Shown: piece by piece, positions 15,027-20,770 of the stretch
Position numbering within the stretch: position 1 is the stretch's first letter
How the letters are laid out: each line of letters starts with the position of its first letter
Assembly: GCA_015521685.1 (NCBI GenBank)
Contig: WANT01000056.1
Span: forward strand, 1-39,016
Origin: Aeropyrum sp.
Lineage (GTDB): Archaea; Thermoproteota; Thermoprotei_A; Sulfolobales; Acidilobaceae
Reading direction: 5' to 3'
DNA: 39,016 bases
Translations under genes and position numbers: made by a program
The notes under the pieces: model-generated
The model's database searches: none
What the model was told of the DNA's origin: nothing
What the model saw: only the letters and a program-made list of their open reading frames with translations

Positions 15027-16140
15027 GCGCGAGGGCCTCATAGGCCTCCTATCCAAGGCGAGGCGGCTAACTAGCATCATGATCGACCTCTCCATATACA
15101 GCCTGGCCTTCGGAGACAAGCTGGCGGCCCTCGAGGCGCTAGCCATTGAGGACGAGGTTGACGAGATAGTTAGGGATGCTGTTGCCCTCATGAGCCTCGC
15201 GGTAAGAAGCCCCTCCCAGGAGGGGCTGGCCAAAGGTATTGTTGAGCTGGCTGCCGCCTTCGATAGGGCCAGTGACGCGGCGGGCGATATGGCCCAGCTT
15301 GCTCTAAGGGGGTATCCACCACACAGGTATGTCACGGCCTCAGCGATATGCTGTGGTGAGGTTGTCGCTGCTCTGAAGTCTGAGAGGTCCTCAGAACCCC
15401 TCGAGGCGGTGGACGTGGTTCTGGTCAGGCGCGGGGGCCGCTCTATACTGAGCCCCGAGGATATGCCCATACTTAGGGGTGACGTGGTTATTGTGAGGGG
15501 CGCCCTCGAGGCGGTCTACGAGGCTGCCGAAATCCTGGGAGCAAGGCCTCCGAGGCTCGAGTCTAGCGTTGACGCCATGCTGGCGGACGAGACTGCCAGG
15601 GGGTTTGCCAGGGCTAAGGTCCTCGCTAGAGCTGGCTACGACGCCTCGCTATACAGCCTTCTGGCGGGCGATGAGGTCCTCGCCAGAACCATACTCGAGA
15701 TGGAGGAGATTATGGATCTAGAGATAACTGGGCTCATGGAGGCTCTTACGGCCCAGGGTGCTGGTAGGCCCGGAGAGGTCCTCGCGGGCTACACTTTCCT
15801 CTCAGGCCTGGAGGACCTCTCCGACGCCGCCGCTAGGGTGGCTGGCGTTGTGGTGGGCGGGCTGGCTGGGGAGGTGCTAGGTATGACTGTAGAGGACCCC
15901 TGGGAGTCATATCTCCAGCTAGAATACTCGAGCCCCGAGCCCGCCGACCTAGAGGAGCTAGGCCTGGATGAGGAGGGTATAGTGGTCGTGGCTGCCAGGG
16001 TTGGAGGCAGGTGGGTGATCCCCTTCGTGGAGAATCCCGTGCTAGAGAAGGGAGATACAGTGCTTGCTAAGATCTATGCCGGGCAGGCTGGAGCCCTAAA
16101 GAGATTTCTAGAGTCTAAGGGATTCACTGTGAGAGGGTAG
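15010..16140 (+). CDS. PhoU/TrkA-C double-module protein
   Basis: 376 aa with two copies of the same layout: PhoU-like helical domain (about 5-115) then TrkA-C/RCK-C domain (about 128-170, with DMPILRGDVVIVRG), and again PhoU-like (about 185-290) and RCK-C (about 300-374, with PVLEKGDTVLAKIYAGQ). RCK-C domains bind small ligands and gate K+ and other ion transporters, while PhoU domains bind metals and transporters. It is soluble, and no channel gene adjoins it. TTG 15010 overlaps the previous gene by 17 bases. I infer a cytoplasmic regulator of an ion or phosphate transporter elsewhere. Confidence 0.8.
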   Translation: MDLGARREGLIGLLSKARRLTSIMIDLSIYSLAFGDKLAALEALAIEDEVDEIVRDAVALMSLAVRSPSQEGLAKGIVELAAAFDRASDAAGDMAQLALRGYPPHRYVTASAICCGEVVAALKSERSSEPLEAVDVVLVRRGGRSILSPEDMPILRGDVVIVRGALEAVYEAAEILGARPPRLESSVDAMLADETARGFARAKVLARAGYDASLYSLLAGDEVLARTILEMEEIMDLEITGLMEALTAQGAGRPGEVLAGYTFLSGLEDLSDAAARVAGVVVGGLAGEVLGMTVEDPWESYLQLEYSSPEPADLEELGLDEEGIVVVAARVGGRWVIPFVENPVLEKGDTVLAKIYAGQAGALKRFLESKGFTVRG

Positions 16141-16151
16141 GGCTGGAAGAC

Positions 16152-17381
16152 TTGCCGAGAATCCCCCCGGAGCTGTGCACCAGGTGTAAGGGCTTCAGGC
16201 TGCTCTGCGGCCTGCCATCCTGCCCTATACTCGACAGGCTTAGAAGCCAGACCAGGAGCCTCCAGAGAGCTGGGTGGAGGAGGGATGTTGAGGGCCCCAC
16301 CCCGCCCAGCATACTCGTGGGGGAAAGGGGATACCCCAGGGTGAGGCTGTACTATATGGTACCTCCAGGCGCATCACCACAAGATGCGTCGCGATACGAG
16401 GACCCCCAGGGGTGGAGGGAGAGGGGCGTTCCTCTAGCCTCTATAGTAAGGCTTAGAAGCGAGCTCCTGGCAGGCTCCATACAGCTCAACGCTGCCAGGA
16501 GGGCTTTCGAGAGGCTGTATGAGCTCGAGATAGCGCCAGCAGCCCTATCCTCGAGGCCAGTCGACAGCATGGTTGAGCTTCTGAGAACCCCCGTTCCTAG
16601 GGTGAGCTTCGACGGGTACACCAAGCCCGTGGGCCCTACGGCTCCGGCTAGGAGGGTGGTGGTTGGGGGGAACCCTTCTCTAGAGCCTAAGCTTGAGAGG
16701 GTATTATGGGAGGATGAGAAGGCAGAGCCCCTCGCATGGGAGCTCTACAGGTCGGGGGTGGATGTCTATAGGATACAGAGGGCCCTGAGCCTAGGTGCTC
16801 TCGGCAGGCTTAGAAATAGGAGGCTTGTTCCCACACGGTGGGCGATCACTGCTGTGGATGAAATGTTGTCACGGAGGCTTAGGGACAGCCTGAGGGGGAG
16901 GCCTTGGATAGACACGCTAGAGGTATACTATTCCGAGTACCTACACAACCGTTTCCTCATAATACTCCTGCCTGGGGCAGGGTGGATGGAGTGGATTGAG
17001 ATATGGCACCCCCATGGCCTCTGGACCCAGACGGCTGCAGCCCCCCTAGTATGGCGTGTTGCAGAGGATCCCCTAGGCAGGAAGACGGCTGAGGATGGAG
17101 GTTTTAGTGCTGCGAAGCTCCCAATACTGGAGCACCTATCCGCTAGGGGGCGTAATGCCGACGCGATTATCGTGAGGGAGATACTACCACAGTACTACGC
17201 CCCCGTAGGTAACTGGCATATAAGGGAAACTGTGAGGGCCGCCATGAAGAGGCCAATAGCTAGAGGGCTCTCACATGGAGAACTAGAGAGGTTGGCCGGA
17301 GGCCTCGTAAACGAGTGGCCTCTAGCCAAGCGCCATATAACCCTCCTGAAGCCGAGGCCCACGCTTGAGGACTTCCTCTAG
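16152..17381 (+). CDS. nreA: NreA-family DNA repair protein with C-terminal PCNA-binding motif
   Basis: 409 aa. The N-terminus carries a zinc-binding cluster CTRCKGF...CGLPSC (Cys 9, 12, 19, 24), then a conserved region (RVSFDGYTKPVGPTAP), and the C-terminal half ends in RPTLEDFL, a PIP-box-like tail for PCNA. This matches the archaeal NreA/NreB family, implicated genetically in DNA repair in Haloferax. TTG 16152 is 11 bases after the PhoU/TrkA-C stop and closes the operon. The next gene is convergent, across the A+T-rich spacer. Confidence 0.85.
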   Translation: MPRIPPELCTRCKGFRLLCGLPSCPILDRLRSQTRSLQRAGWRRDVEGPTPPSILVGERGYPRVRLYYMVPPGASPQDASRYEDPQGWRERGVPLASIVRLRSELLAGSIQLNAARRAFERLYELEIAPAALSSRPVDSMVELLRTPVPRVSFDGYTKPVGPTAPARRVVVGGNPSLEPKLERVLWEDEKAEPLAWELYRSGVDVYRIQRALSLGALGRLRNRRLVPTRWAITAVDEMLSRRLRDSLRGRPWIDTLEVYYSEYLHNRFLIILLPGAGWMEWIEIWHPHGLWTQTAAAPLVWRVAEDPLGRKTAEDGGFSAAKLPILEHLSARGRNADAIIVREILPQYYAPVGNWHIRETVRAAMKRPIARGLSHGELERLAGGLVNEWPLAKRHITLLKPRPTLEDFL

Positions 17382-17405: not shown

Positions 17406-17423
17406 GTTAACCCCCCGGTTAAC
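17406..17423. repeat. GTTAAC-N6-GTTAAC site, left copy
   Basis: GTTAAC CCCCCG GTTAAC, where each half is itself a palindrome. Read on the minus strand with flanks, it matches the site at 18493-18510 in 21 of 23 positions. The two therefore lie in inverted orientation on either side of the WhiP-like gene. Candidate binding site for an initiator or regulator. Confidence 0.7.
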
Positions 17424-17636
17424 TCTCTGTATTGTCTATCAACTTCCAATACGGGCAAAATCCTAGGTAAGGCAAAAGGGTTCTAGTGATAGTTAGTTTT
17501 GTCTAGATAATACTCGCATAATGATACAAAAGGTAATATTATGGGGTCACAGCATACCATGCAATCGCTAGAATATCATTAAACCATAATATCGTGAGAG
17601 TATAGTTGTAGATACTCCAGCTGGGACCTCATAAAA
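17424..17636. other. A+T-rich spacer, candidate duplex-unwinding region
   Basis: No gene; lies between the convergent nreA and WhiP-like genes. It is distinctly A+T-rich compared with neighbours. It contains ATATTATGG (17536-17544) inverted as CCATAATAT (17584-17592) and a weaker AGTAT/ATACT pair near 17599-17616. With the adjacent GTTAAC site it has the look of an origin spacer, but no full ORB element was recognised. Confidence 0.4.
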
Positions 17637-18416
17637 CTACAGCCGGGCTCCAGCCTCGCATGCCTCAATGAGCTCCTTAGACTTTTTGGAGAGACCAACT
17701 CTCATGCCTAACCTCGGATCCCTGTAAATATATATGTAGCCTTTAGTCTGGAGTCCCCGTAGAGTCTTAACAAGCCACTGAAAATCTGCCCCCATCTCCT
17801 CCTGCATCTGGTCAAGGTAGATGTATGTGGTTCCCCACTTGGCGTAGTGGTCTAAGAGGAACGACATAACCTCGAGCTCATCGCCTGTAAGATCCTCTCT
17901 AGATACCTCTAGTGCACACCTCGCTGAGGCGGCCCTCTCTTGTGGTTTATTGTCAGGCTTACCTTTTAGGCCGGCAATGAATGGCAAAGGTTTGCCAGCG
18001 GCTCCTCTAATGGAGGCTCTTCTCTTGTCATTTATTGCCGGCTTTTCCCGTACGGTGGATAATATGCGCTGTGCGATAACGGCGAACTCATTAAACCTAT
18101 CCCTACTCTCCCTCTCGAGGACCTCACGCGCATACTCCTCTCCCAGAGGCGTCAAGTACCAGAGTCCAGCCTCGTACTCTACATAGCCCCTAGTCTTCCA
18201 GTAGCTTAGATAGCTAGAGACATACCTAGTCTGGTAGCCTAGTATACCAGCTATCTCGGCCGCCCGCATAGGCTTGGCTAGGAGCATAACTAGAATTGCG
18301 TCGACTAGCCTGCTCCGAGGACCTCGCCTGCCTCGTGCTTTAGCCTTAGCCTCCTCGTGTTGCTCGAGGTACTCTTTCACTGCTCTCCATAGATCATCAG
18401 ACAAGCCTAGCCCCAT
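17637..18416 (-). CDS. WhiP-like double winged-helix DNA-binding protein
   Basis: About 259 aa with two winged-helix segments. The first (about 35-100) contains AAEIAGILGYQTRYVSSYLS, KTRGYVEYEAGLWYLTPLG; the second (about 175-250) contains LTGDELEVMSFLLDHYAKWGT and LRGLQTKGYIYIYRD. A variable basic linker of about 60 residues joins them. This resembles WhiP, the Cdt1-like candidate initiator found near Sulfolobus and Aeropyrum origins, but a general regulator is possible. ATG 18416 (or TTG 18419) is used; the TATA box at 18429-18436 might instead favour a leaderless TTG at 18404. It is flanked by paired GTTAAC sites. Confidence 0.65.
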   Translation of the reverse strand: MGLGLSDDLWRAVKEYLEQHEEAKAKARGRRGPRSRLVDAILVMLLAKPMRAAEIAGILGYQTRYVSSYLSYWKTRGYVEYEAGLWYLTPLGEEYAREVLERESRDRFNEFAVIAQRILSTVREKPAINDKRRASIRGAAGKPLPFIAGLKGKPDNKPQERAASARCALEVSREDLTGDELEVMSFLLDHYAKWGTTYIYLDQMQEEMGADFQWLVKTLRGLQTKGYIYIYRDPRLGMRVGLSKKSKELIEACEAGARL

Positions 18417-18428
18417 CAAGAGGGATTT

Positions 18429-18436
18429 GTATATAG
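18429..18436 (-). promoter_or_regulatory. TATA box of the WhiP-like gene
   Basis: CTATATAC on the minus strand, inside an A+T-rich run, is the only TATA-like element between the gene and the GTTAAC site at 18493. It predicts a transcript start near 18405. Confidence 0.5.
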
Positions 18437-18492
18437 TTGGGTTGGTGTGGAGTGAGGGCCTGTAACACCGGGCTTGCTATGGGTACCTAGGA

Positions 18493-18510
18493 GTTAACCG
18501 GGGAGTTAAC
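18493..18510. repeat. GTTAAC-N6-GTTAAC site, right copy
   Basis: GTTAAC CGGGGA GTTAAC, almost the exact reverse complement of the left copy (17406-17423), including flanking GA and CAGG. A half-like TAACACCGGG lies nearby at 18462-18471. It sits about 60 bases upstream of the TATA box of the WhiP-like gene. Confidence 0.7.
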
Positions 18511-18539: not shown

Positions 18540-19154
18540 CTAGCAAACCTCCTCGGCTACCATCCTGGCAACTGCATTATATGCATTGTAGAGGCATTCC
18601 CTAGGAATGAAGATCACTAGAGCCCTATCGGAGATGCCGAGGTCCTCGACGGCCTCGTATATTGTAGACGCTAGCTCACCCTCTAGACCGGGGAACACTG
18701 GCTTGCCCTCCTTAACACCTCCAATTACCGATATCCTGCATCCCTCCATAACCAGGTAGTCGCGGATCTTGTAGACGCCAGTCAGGTCCTCGGGGGGGTC
18801 TATTGTGGGGACTACCACCGCGACGCCGCCTCGTATAGGGCTAGCTATGTTTTCTTGGATCTCTAAGAGTTTGTTCATTGCTTTGACGAGCTTCAAGCCC
18901 TTCTCGGAGGGCTCTATACCCCTCCCCCTCTTGAGAGCCAGGCCCGTCTCGATCAGCCACTCCATGAGCGTGCGTGTGGATGCCTCACCCAAGCCTAGGA
19001 GGGCCGAGATCCTGTGCCTGCCTAGGGGCTGTCTAGCGGAGTGTTCTAGTGCTTTGACCACATGGTAGAGCCTGTAAGTTGGGGCTCCTCCCCTCCTGGG
19101 GGATGATAGCCCTATAACCTCCTTTAGGAGCCTACACTCCTCACCACCAATCAT
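18540..19154 (-). CDS. Predicted winged-helix regulator with DUF4443-like ligand domain
   Basis: 204 aa. The N-terminal half is a winged helix (RLYHVVKALEHSARQPLGRH, ALLGLGEASTRTLMEWLIET). The C-terminal half (about 105-204) is a compact alpha/beta domain (GGVAVVVPTIDPPEDLTGVY, GISDRALVIFIPRE) resembling DUF4443 of archaeal regulators. The ligand is unknown. ATG 19154 lies 14 bases inside the upstream small gene, so the pair is translationally coupled. Confidence 0.6.
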   Translation of the reverse strand: MIGGEECRLLKEVIGLSSPRRGGAPTYRLYHVVKALEHSARQPLGRHRISALLGLGEASTRTLMEWLIETGLALKRGRGIEPSEKGLKLVKAMNKLLEIQENIASPIRGGVAVVVPTIDPPEDLTGVYKIRDYLVMEGCRISVIGGVKEGKPVFPGLEGELASTIYEAVEDLGISDRALVIFIPRECLYNAYNAVARMVAEEVC

Positions 19155-19377
19155 CCTCCTCGACCTCTACATCTAGCTCATCGTAGAGTGAAACGAGGTC
19201 CTGGAGCGTCACCCCAGCCTTGGCCGCAGCTCTCCTTATCCTTCTCCATTCAGGCTTTACCCTGACTCCGAACTCCTCCCAGAGCCACTCGGCGACGGTC
19301 TCCGCATCTACGCCCTTCTCCTCGAGCCTGCCTAGAAGCCTGTCTACTACTAGCCTCCTATCCCTGCCTGGCTTCAT
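19141..19377 (-). CDS. Small acidic-tailed protein, coupled to the regulator gene
   Basis: 78 aa, not recognised. It is helical and charged, with tryptophans at 32, 39 and at the very end (EEDDWW). ATG 19377 has GGTG upstream, and its stop overlaps the next gene by 14 bases, which supports it being real. It is divergent from argF. Confidence 0.55.
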   Translation of the reverse strand: MKPGRDRRLVVDRLLGRLEEKGVDAETVAEWLWEEFGVRVKPEWRRIRRAAAKAGVTLQDLVSLYDELDVEVEEDDWW

Positions 19378-19478
19378 ATGTACACCGGGGAGTATATTGT
19401 AGAGGGTGGGGTCTATAATTGGAGCTGTTGGAGCCCAGTTATCAGGCCTAACCCGCCGAAGGTTCTGGAGGGTGGCAG

Positions 19479-20426
19479 GTGGTGGGGCTTCGCTCGCTTA
19501 AGGGGAGGCACCTCCTCTGGCTGGCTGATTTCGCGCCGGAGGAGGTTAGGCATATGGTGGATTTGACTCTAGAGCTGAAGAGGAGATTCTATTCGGGAGA
19601 GAGGATCCTACCGCTGCTAGAGGGTAAATCTATCGGCCTCCTATTCGAGAAGCCTAGCACGAGGACCAGGATAAGTCTAGAGGTGGCTGTGTCCCAGCTT
19701 GGGGGGTCGACAGTGTATATGACGCCCCAGGAGACTCAGATCGGCAGGGGCGAGACTATAGCCGACACAGCCCGAGTCCTTTCGCGCTATCTCGACGCGA
19801 TAGTGGCTAGGGTCAAGAGCCACTCAACTCTGGAGGAGCTAGCCAAGCACTCAACCATACCAGTTATTAATGGTTTGAGCGACTTAACCCACCCCCTCCA
19901 GGCTGTGGCAGACATGGCGACCATACTCGAGAAGAAGGGTAGGCTTTCGGGCGTGAGGCTAGCCTTTGTCGGTGATGGGAGCGATAATGTGCTCCACAGC
20001 CTGCTGCTGGCTGGAGCCAAGCTAGGGTTGAGTATAGTAGTCAGTAGCCCGCCCTCTTTGAGGCCTGATGATAGGGTTATGGCGAGGGCGCTGGAGGCTG
20101 CGGAGGAGACAGGCGCCTCTATAGAACTGGTTGTTGATCCTTTTGAGGCCGTTGAGGGTGCTGACGTGGTCTACACTGATGTGTGGGTTAGCATGGGCCA
20201 AGAGGATATTGCCGAGAGGAAGATTGAGCTGCTGAGACCCTACCAGGTCAACTCGAGGCTTATGGAGAAGGCTGGGGGGAGGGCTATATTCATGCACTGC
20301 CTTCCGGCAGTGAGGGGCCAGGAGGTTACTGACGACGTAATAGACGGTCCCCAGAGCGCAGTGTGGGACCAAGCCGAGAACAGGCTTCACGCACACAAGG
20401 CGGTCCTCTCGCTTATAGTGCCCTGA
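19479..20426 (+). CDS. argF: Ornithine carbamoyltransferase
   Basis: The enzyme makes citrulline from ornithine and carbamoyl phosphate. Motifs: carbamoyl-phosphate loop EKPSTRTR (57-64), HPLQ (138-141), DVWVSMG (234-240, ornithine side) and HCLP (273-276). 315 aa, normal length. GTG 19479 (or 19482) follows GGAGGGTGG. No other arginine gene adjoins it, though carbamate kinase lies 11 kb away. Confidence 0.95.
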
Positions 20427-20437
20427 ACCGGGCTCCG

Positions 20438-20770
20438 TCAGGCTATAGCCTCCTCAACAACCTCCCACTCATCCTCGAACACTGGGAAGCCCGCAGGGCC
20501 TATGCTGGAGGCCAGCTCTATCGACTTGAAGACCTCATCAACTATCTCCTCGATGCTGGGGACCCTGCCCTCAGCAATAACCACCCCATCCACTATCACT
20601 AGTGGTAGCCCCCTCCTCTCAGCCTCCACCCCATCTACTGGTATCTCTAGTATGTCAACGTCTACCGATACGCTGTACTCCCTTGCTAGAATGCTGGCCG
20701 CCTCTCTGGCTACAGCAGCCGCCAGCCTCCCCCTCCAGTCTATACCCGCGTATACCGTTATCTCGGGCAA
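20438..20770 (-). CDS. Thioredoxin-fold-like small protein lacking CxxC
   Basis: 110 aa. The order is beta start (EITVYAGIDW), helix (LAAAVAREAASILAREY), beta (VSVDVDILEI), then GLPLVIVDGVVIAEGRVPS with a proline before a strand, as at the cis-Pro of thioredoxins. At the usual CxxC position it reads DWRGR, so redox activity is unlikely. TTG 20770 has GATGAGGG next to it. It is convergent with argF, separated by 11 bases. The family assignment is tentative. Confidence 0.5.
   Translation of the reverse strand: MPEITVYAGIDWRGRLAAAVAREAASILAREYSVSVDVDILEIPVDGVEAERRGLPLVIVDGVVIAEGRVPSIEEIVDEVFKSIELASSIGPAGFPVFEDEWEVVEEAIA

Follow-up and report, generated by a model that had tools for sequence, protein, structure and literature searches.

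A palindrome flanking the WhiP-type origin locus of Aeropyrum recurs beside ORBs at oriC1 and brackets a repeatedly inverted cassette

Archaeal replication origins that use different initiators have not been known to share any sequence element other than ucm. In the WhiP-dependent origins, namely oriC3 of Sulfolobus and the WhiP-type origin of Aeropyrum pernix, the whiP gene lies beside an A+T-rich intergenic origin with a ucm. WhiP is bound at the adjacent origin and needed for its firing in S. islandicus and S. solfataricus (PMC4010727, PMC5134839). A. pernix possesses two origins, oriC1 of the Orc1 type and one of the WhiP type, and a marker-frequency peak or bubble arcs have been shown at the A. 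pernix origin that corresponds to the locus described here (PMC10769869). The ucm, bound by the protein UBP, is a short asymmetric motif of 11 bp common to all origins of the order (PMC12141716). In Haloarcula hispanica, a G-rich inverted repeat that adjoins the ORBs of oriC1, and is not an initiator box, functions as an enhancer; it lies inside an ORB pair, with one half beside each ORB (PMC3936714). Two other systems of the same order use short sites: the chromosome-maintenance protein SegB has palindromic sites of consensus TCTAGA-S-TCTAGA, mostly intragenic (PMC12284271), and the Orc1 paralogue Orc1-2 has a damage-response element, an ANTTTC hexanucleotide at promoters (PMC9738581).

We analysed a stretch of 39,016 nucleotides from an Aeropyrum assembly (hereafter the window), in which a pair of inverted GTTAAC-N6-GTTAAC sites framing a WhiP-like gene had been predicted to mark a replication origin. 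The gene between the sites is indeed an orthologue of WhiP. Its product is 79% and 77% identical to the proteins of the two nearest closed genomes (1,669,696 bp and 1,595,994 bp), which we take to be A. pernix K1 and A. camini; identity is 77-79% across the other Aeropyrum and 43-49% to the Sulfolobaceae orthologues. From the inferred genome identity and the shared context, these orthologues are evidently the published WhiP genes. Orthologues were found in 68 of 117 relatives, with never more than one full-length copy per genome, and the family is order-wide; the named loci of Aeropyrum's own family include Aeropyrum, Thermodiscus, Caldisphaera and Acidilobaceae. A search for WhiP on plasmids gave no match. 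The predicted double winged-helix architecture was borne out by an AlphaFold model, in which both domains are confident. Profile searches of Pfam, NCBIfam and the PDB did not give the protein its name, and Foldseek with the model returned only weak E-values, the best being for tandem or single winged-helix proteins (SarS, MarR). An 18-nt inverted repeat (89%) lies inside whiP at 17970-17987 and 18025-18042, in the linker between the winged-helix domains.

The features of the locus are collected in Table 1. The spacer 3' of whiP has a G+C content of 37%, compared with 54% for the whole window. The A+T richness that had been predicted for this spacer is therefore real, and the inverted repeats predicted within it matter less than the blocks conserved across species. 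On the 5' side of whiP, only P2 and its short flanks are conserved among the three Aeropyrum. A comparison of oriC1 from two Sulfolobaceae yielded, de novo, an 11-bp ucm, ACGGTTTGTAT, situated between the ORBs, in agreement with the published position of ucm in the unwinding element (PMC12141716). At whiP, a ucm-like TTTGTAT is found directly 3' of the gene in most of 53 loci across the order, and the ATGATACAAAA element of the whiP spacer is also present in oriC1 of A. pernix and of the genome analysed here. Because the conserved blocks and the ucm sit in the 3' spacer, and the ATGATACAAAA element recurs at oriC1, this spacer is the likely origin core. Since the whiP gene is orthologous and the A. 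pernix origin is known, the window holds the counterpart of the WhiP-type origin of A. pernix. The predicted origin locus is thus supported both by its orthology with the WhiP-dependent origin of A. pernix and Sulfolobus and by the ucm-type element conserved 3' of whiP (PMC10769869, PMC12141716). With an A+T-rich intergenic region and a ucm beside whiP, as in the described origins, the locus is, judged from its sequence, almost certainly the WhiP-dependent origin of an Aeropyrum species. GC skew gives no mark at this locus. The whiP promoter, to judge from the distance between its TATA-like box and the start codon, would have a leaderless arrangement. On the circular A. pernix chromosome (G005:C1), the origins lie at about 445 and 1,260.8 kb; the two arcs that separate them measure 816 and 854 kb, which places them nearly opposite each other.

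Table 1. Features of the whiP locus, in positions of the window
Feature	Position	Strand	Remarks
nre, adjoining P1 here (P2 in A. pernix)	16152..17381	+	Pfam Nre_N/Nre_C; gene order; BLASTN
Palindrome P1, GTTAACC-CCCC-GGTTAAC	17406..17423	+	Exact match; origin side, 3' of whiP; 25 bp past the nre stop codon
A+T-rich spacer 3' of whiP, probable origin core (duplex-unwinding region)	17424..17636		37% G+C; blocks invariant in three Aeropyrum species
Conserved block TTGTCTAGrTAATAC in the origin spacer	17499..17513		All but one base invariant in three Aeropyrum
22-bp block ATAATGATACAAAAGGTAATAT holding the ucm-type motif	17518..17539	-	Near-invariant in three Aeropyrum; one A. camini mismatch, at the last base
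ucm-type motif ACCTTTTGTAT (minus strand)	17524-17534	-	Within the 22-bp block
Conserved block ACCATAATAT in the origin spacer	17583..17592		Invariant in three Aeropyrum
whiP, 260 aa, two winged-helix domains (about residues 37-89 and 158-243)	17637..18419	-	Orthology; AlphaFold model
TATA-box-like TATATA of whiP	18430..18435	-	Read from the sequence; about 15-20 bp from the start codon
Palindrome P2, GTTAACT-CCCC-GGTTAAC on the minus strand	18493..18510	-	Exact match; whiP promoter side; inverted relative to P1
Winged-helix neighbour gene, beside P2 here, beside the ucm-side palindrome in A. pernix	18540..19154	-	Weak PH0730-like_N/CggR_N

Both predicted sites are present as exact matches to the pattern, at 17406-17423 (P1, GTTAACCCCCCGGTTAAC) and 18493-18510 (P2, GTTAACCGGGGAGTTAAC), and both are intergenic, on either side of the ORF 17637-18419(-), with P2 74-91 bp 5' of the whiP start. 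The near-identity that had been noticed between them also holds: P1 and reverse-complemented P2 agree at 21 of 23 positions with their flanks and at 17 of 18 in the core, and a repeat search delimits the P1/P2 region as 30-nt arms, 83% complementary, with 1065 nt between them. Two exact copies of GTTAAC-N6-GTTAAC in the window compare with a mean of 0.003 in 300 dinucleotide-preserving shuffles, and of the window's six GTTAAC hexamers, four belong to P1 and P2. In locus alignments, both sites are kept in A. pernix and A. camini, P1 at the same place as GTTAACCCCCCGGTATAC. The conserved unit is narrower than the predicted pattern: it reads GTTAAC-Y-CCCC-R-GTTAAC, with palindromic arms in a 7-4-7 layout and a centre that lacks symmetry. 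Exact GTTAAC-N6-GTTAAC occurs three times in the entire assembly of 1.44 Mb, so that the many scattered copies that would have spoken against the prediction are not seen here. The third copy (contig C61) lies in frame within a shikimate-kinase ORF, with codons for ...VNRGVN..., and is probably a coding coincidence; P1 and P2, flanking whiP, are the only intergenic exact copies in this genome. The copies in C61, in sufS (window 1221) and in rpiA, which encode in-frame peptides of the VNRGVN/VHRGVH/VYRGVN type, were set aside as at least partly coding coincidences.

We then sought the exact sequence TTAACYCCCCRGTTAA in 77 genomes, 37 of Aeropyrum's family and 40 others, with the reversed pattern as a control. 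It was present in 30 of the 37 and in 11 of the 40, with 181 sites in total, and the reversed pattern gave no match in either the 77 genomes or 53 whiP loci. At most 3 kb separates whiP from 42 of the 181 sites, where 0.74 would be expected, and about half of the 53 named whiP loci have the gene flanked by the palindrome. The predicted sites are thus conserved, non-random and associated with origins. In Sulfolobaceae, the palindrome is found about 0.4 kb 5' of whiP and, in several, also 1.7-2.2 kb 3' of it; in one genome (G092), the only two sites within one mismatch both flank whiP. Copies are also found directly 5' of orc1-1 in two Sulfolobaceae, directly 5' of whiP, and around orc1-3, on both sides of which the palindrome lies in a Metallosphaera. 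No palindrome was found around whiP in the WhiP-bearing genomes of f3 (Ignisphaera-type) and f7 (Pyrodictiaceae), and an alternative palindrome at those loci was dismissed after a repeat search and a relaxed pattern gave none.

Some copies have a different distribution. Unlike the genome analysed here, a Caldisphaera-like sister genus (G009, 1,546,846 bp; e.g. L143-L162) has about 31 scattered copies, far above other sister genera, mostly intergenic and exact and mostly away from origins. In two Sulfolobaceae, the palindromes form clusters (L131-L133, G116:C1:1306000-1356000; L126-L129, G085), some with integrase-like ORFs nearby, which suggests that the clustered copies belong to integrated elements. 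Viral contigs gave 67 matches, by our own estimate roughly chance level for so large a collection. Attention was therefore confined to the few contigs whose lengths agree with those of known crenarchaeal viruses: L169/L213, L174 and L195 (75,294, 76,107 and 62,730 bp), which have the lengths of STSV1, STSV2 and ATV, carry one or two copies each, three of four outside ORFs of at least 80 aa. The scatter in G009 and the integrase-linked clusters imply further targets, or a general regulatory role, for the putative factor recognising the palindrome.

The same element is found at oriC1. The A. pernix ORB cluster (CTCCACAGGAAACGGAGGGGT) spans about 444.9-445.2 kb; only 1-2 bp separate it from GTATACCGGGGGGTTAAC, which comes next, and a second copy of the palindrome lies on the far side, inside rpiA. 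In the genome analysed here, oriC1 is on contig C43, with ORBs at 886-1165 and the palindrome at 1166, 1 bp past an ORB. We predicted that inverted pairs elsewhere would bracket ORB clusters; among regions selected accordingly, almost all pair loci have a palindrome directly against an ORB. Across genomes, the palindrome abuts the outermost ORB at its G-rich end, the gap being 1-4 bp and hardly ever more than 2; 19 of the 24 genomes surveyed in Aeropyrum's family show this. Outside this family, the adjacency is seen in both Sulfolobaceae surveyed, in G064 and in four of five f7 genomes, and in none of nine genomes of f2, f3, f5, f9 and f10. G064 has no detectable WhiP and two palindromes, one of them flush with an ORB, and the f7 genomes have WhiP and carry palindromes only at oriC1. 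At the f7 oriC1 (L259-L263), the 7-4-7 shape is kept with other centres (TAGA, TATA, AGGT), as in GTTTACC-TAGA-GGTAAAC; the specificity of the factor may have drifted there. The palindrome is therefore neither confined to genomes with WhiP nor a follower of WhiP origins, and its presence at oriC1, including that of G064 with no detectable WhiP, means that the element belongs to origins generally, not to WhiP. Consequently, the part of the original prediction that made the sites specific elements of WhiP is not supported, the same palindrome being present at oriC1 in a genome without detectable WhiP and absent around whiP in f3 and f7. From its distribution, the palindrome is probably a general origin-border element rather than a private site of WhiP.

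Comparison of gene order around whiP revealed a second property of the locus. In the window, the order is trkA and nre (forward), P1, the spacer, whiP (reverse), P2, the winged-helix gene (reverse) and argF (forward), and a homologue of this winged-helix gene is the neighbour of whiP in most of Aeropyrum's family. A. pernix and A. camini have the same flanks, and the cassette between the palindromes is turned round relative to the window. When the window is aligned to A. pernix by BLASTN, the cassette (17499-18415) runs in one direction and the flanks (15041-17233 and 18634-20500) in the other; the breakpoints therefore fall in two short intervals that hold P1 and P2, a resolution at the level of intervals. 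The bracketed segment is thus found in both orientations, with the crossover placed only to the intervals around the palindromes. On an nre+whiP tree of 28 family members, obtained by a quick search, the orientation of the cassette requires at least six parsimony changes, four of them forced by well-supported branches; the winged-helix neighbour gene also switches orientation. Gene order is nearly constant in the Sulfolobaceae, Pyrodictiaceae and Ignisphaera-type loci, and several flipped cassettes (L299, L303, L304) have no recognisable palindrome at whiP today. The winged-helix gene beside whiP (18540-19154 and its homologues) is found in both orientations in the family and is itself sometimes flanked by palindromes.

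We lean slightly towards the following explanation as a whole. The unwinding core with its ucm would lie in the spacer 3' of whiP, with WhiP as the adjacent initiator, and P1 and P2 would be copies of an 18-bp origin-border element common to the WhiP-type and Orc1-type origins of the order. Its constant distance from the ORB, its conserved 7-4-7 symmetry and its presence at both types of origin suggest that this element serves a dimeric factor at origin borders. The factor would most likely be a homodimeric protein, probably of the winged-helix or HTH type and distinct from WhiP, which would bind directly against Orc1 on the outermost ORB at oriC1 and on both borders at the WhiP origin. Pairs of palindromes may bridge and close a small origin loop that limits or stabilises the assembly of initiator and MCM, and P2, on the promoter side, may in addition control the initiator gene. 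As P1 and P2 enclose the cassette as inverted repeats, an occasional exchange between the two could flip it, presumably without harm to function. Among candidates for the binder, the neighbouring HTH protein was rejected, since some families that lack the palindrome have it and G064 does not, and WhiP as a universal binder is disfavoured by G064 and f7.

A narrower role for WhiP has some attraction, in that its tandem winged helices could each occupy one GTTAAC arm while the asymmetric centre sets the orientation, the sites acting as initiator boxes and autoregulatory operators. The strongest genome-wide association of the palindrome is with whiP, the gene is flanked by the only intergenic exact copies here and by the only two sites of G092, and a two-domain monomer such as that modelled by AlphaFold could read a pseudo-palindrome of this kind; we nevertheless hold it unlikely, given that the palindromes abut the ORBs of oriC1 in several families, including G064, and that f3 and f7 have WhiP and no such sites around whiP. 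We regard as less likely again a reading in which the palindrome extends the ORB as a secondary site of Orc1-1, through which Orc1 would be brought to the WhiP origin as well. This would fit with the 1-4 bp gap that, in many genomes, separates the palindrome from the outermost ORB at its G-rich end, and with the in vitro binding of S. solfataricus Orc1 proteins to oriC3 (PMC5333045), but the palindrome is found on the outermost ORB only, shares no dyad with the ORB and has no ORB near it at whiP. Orc1 binding to the palindrome is possible; the site itself is not an ORB, as neither P1 nor P2 carries the TCCANNGGAAAC dyad that makes up an ORB together with a GGGG string.

The copies directly 5' of whiP, 5' of orc1-1 in two Sulfolobaceae and around orc1-3, together with the scattered intergenic copies in G009, could instead reflect the operator of a transcription factor for initiator and mobile-element genes, so that proximity to origins would merely mirror their promoters. 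We give this a still lower probability: P1 lies between convergent gene ends, the neighbour of oriC1 in f1 is rpiA and not an initiator gene, and the fixed ORB spacing is left unexplained. An operator role is possible for the upstream copy P2 and does not account for the downstream copy between convergent genes. Least probable of all is a site-specific recombinase of mobile-element origin that inverts the origin cassette by crossing over at the palindromes (arms with a 4-6-bp overlap). The repeated inversion of the bracketed unit and the copies in integrated elements and in viral contigs, including those with the lengths of STSV1, STSV2 and ATV, are consistent with such an enzyme, for which we found no candidate; however, the palindrome has a fixed position against the ORBs and is conserved at oriC1, an origin whose orientation to rpiA is constant in the loci examined, some flipped cassettes have no recognisable sites, and ordinary exchange between short inverted repeats would suffice.

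Returning to the border element that we prefer, it differs from each of the described systems. Relative to the known WhiP-dependent origins, this locus adds bracketing palindromes common with oriC1 and the recurrent inversion of the cassette, neither of which is mentioned in the open-access sources consulted. The palindrome, 18 bp long and at the borders, is not the ucm, which is located inside the unwinding element (PMC12141716); it does not match the ACGGTTTGTAT-type motif, and this locus has a ucm of its own (Table 1). The G-rich inverted repeat of H. hispanica seems the closest functional analogue, with a different geometry: there the halves lie directly inside two inverted ORBs, an arrangement that the palindromes do not have, whereas here each copy is a complete palindrome placed beyond the outermost ORB, and such copies also bracket an origin without ORBs. 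The SegB site, which has no resemblance to P1 or P2, and the Orc1-2 damage-response element, a different sequence, were both discarded as identities of the palindrome. Among the matches listed in a search of open-access text for the palindrome sequence, there was no archaeal paper, the primary WhiP papers lying outside that scope, and the element is apparently undescribed so far.

We tentatively suggest, as a proposal about which we have some doubt, that archaea have, in this palindrome, a hitherto unrecognised class of cis-element that borders origins and serves the unrelated Orc1 and WhiP initiator systems alike; its putative factor would contact Orc1 at a fixed spacing, and at the WhiP origin the element would delimit a flipping cassette, perhaps one that flips within populations. 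The recurrent inversion indicates that the WhiP origin can function whichever way it faces its neighbours. A second element common to Orc1-type and WhiP-type origins points to a further origin factor and to a common border or loading geometry, and the palindrome itself provides a bait sequence for finding this factor, the same route by which UBP was found.
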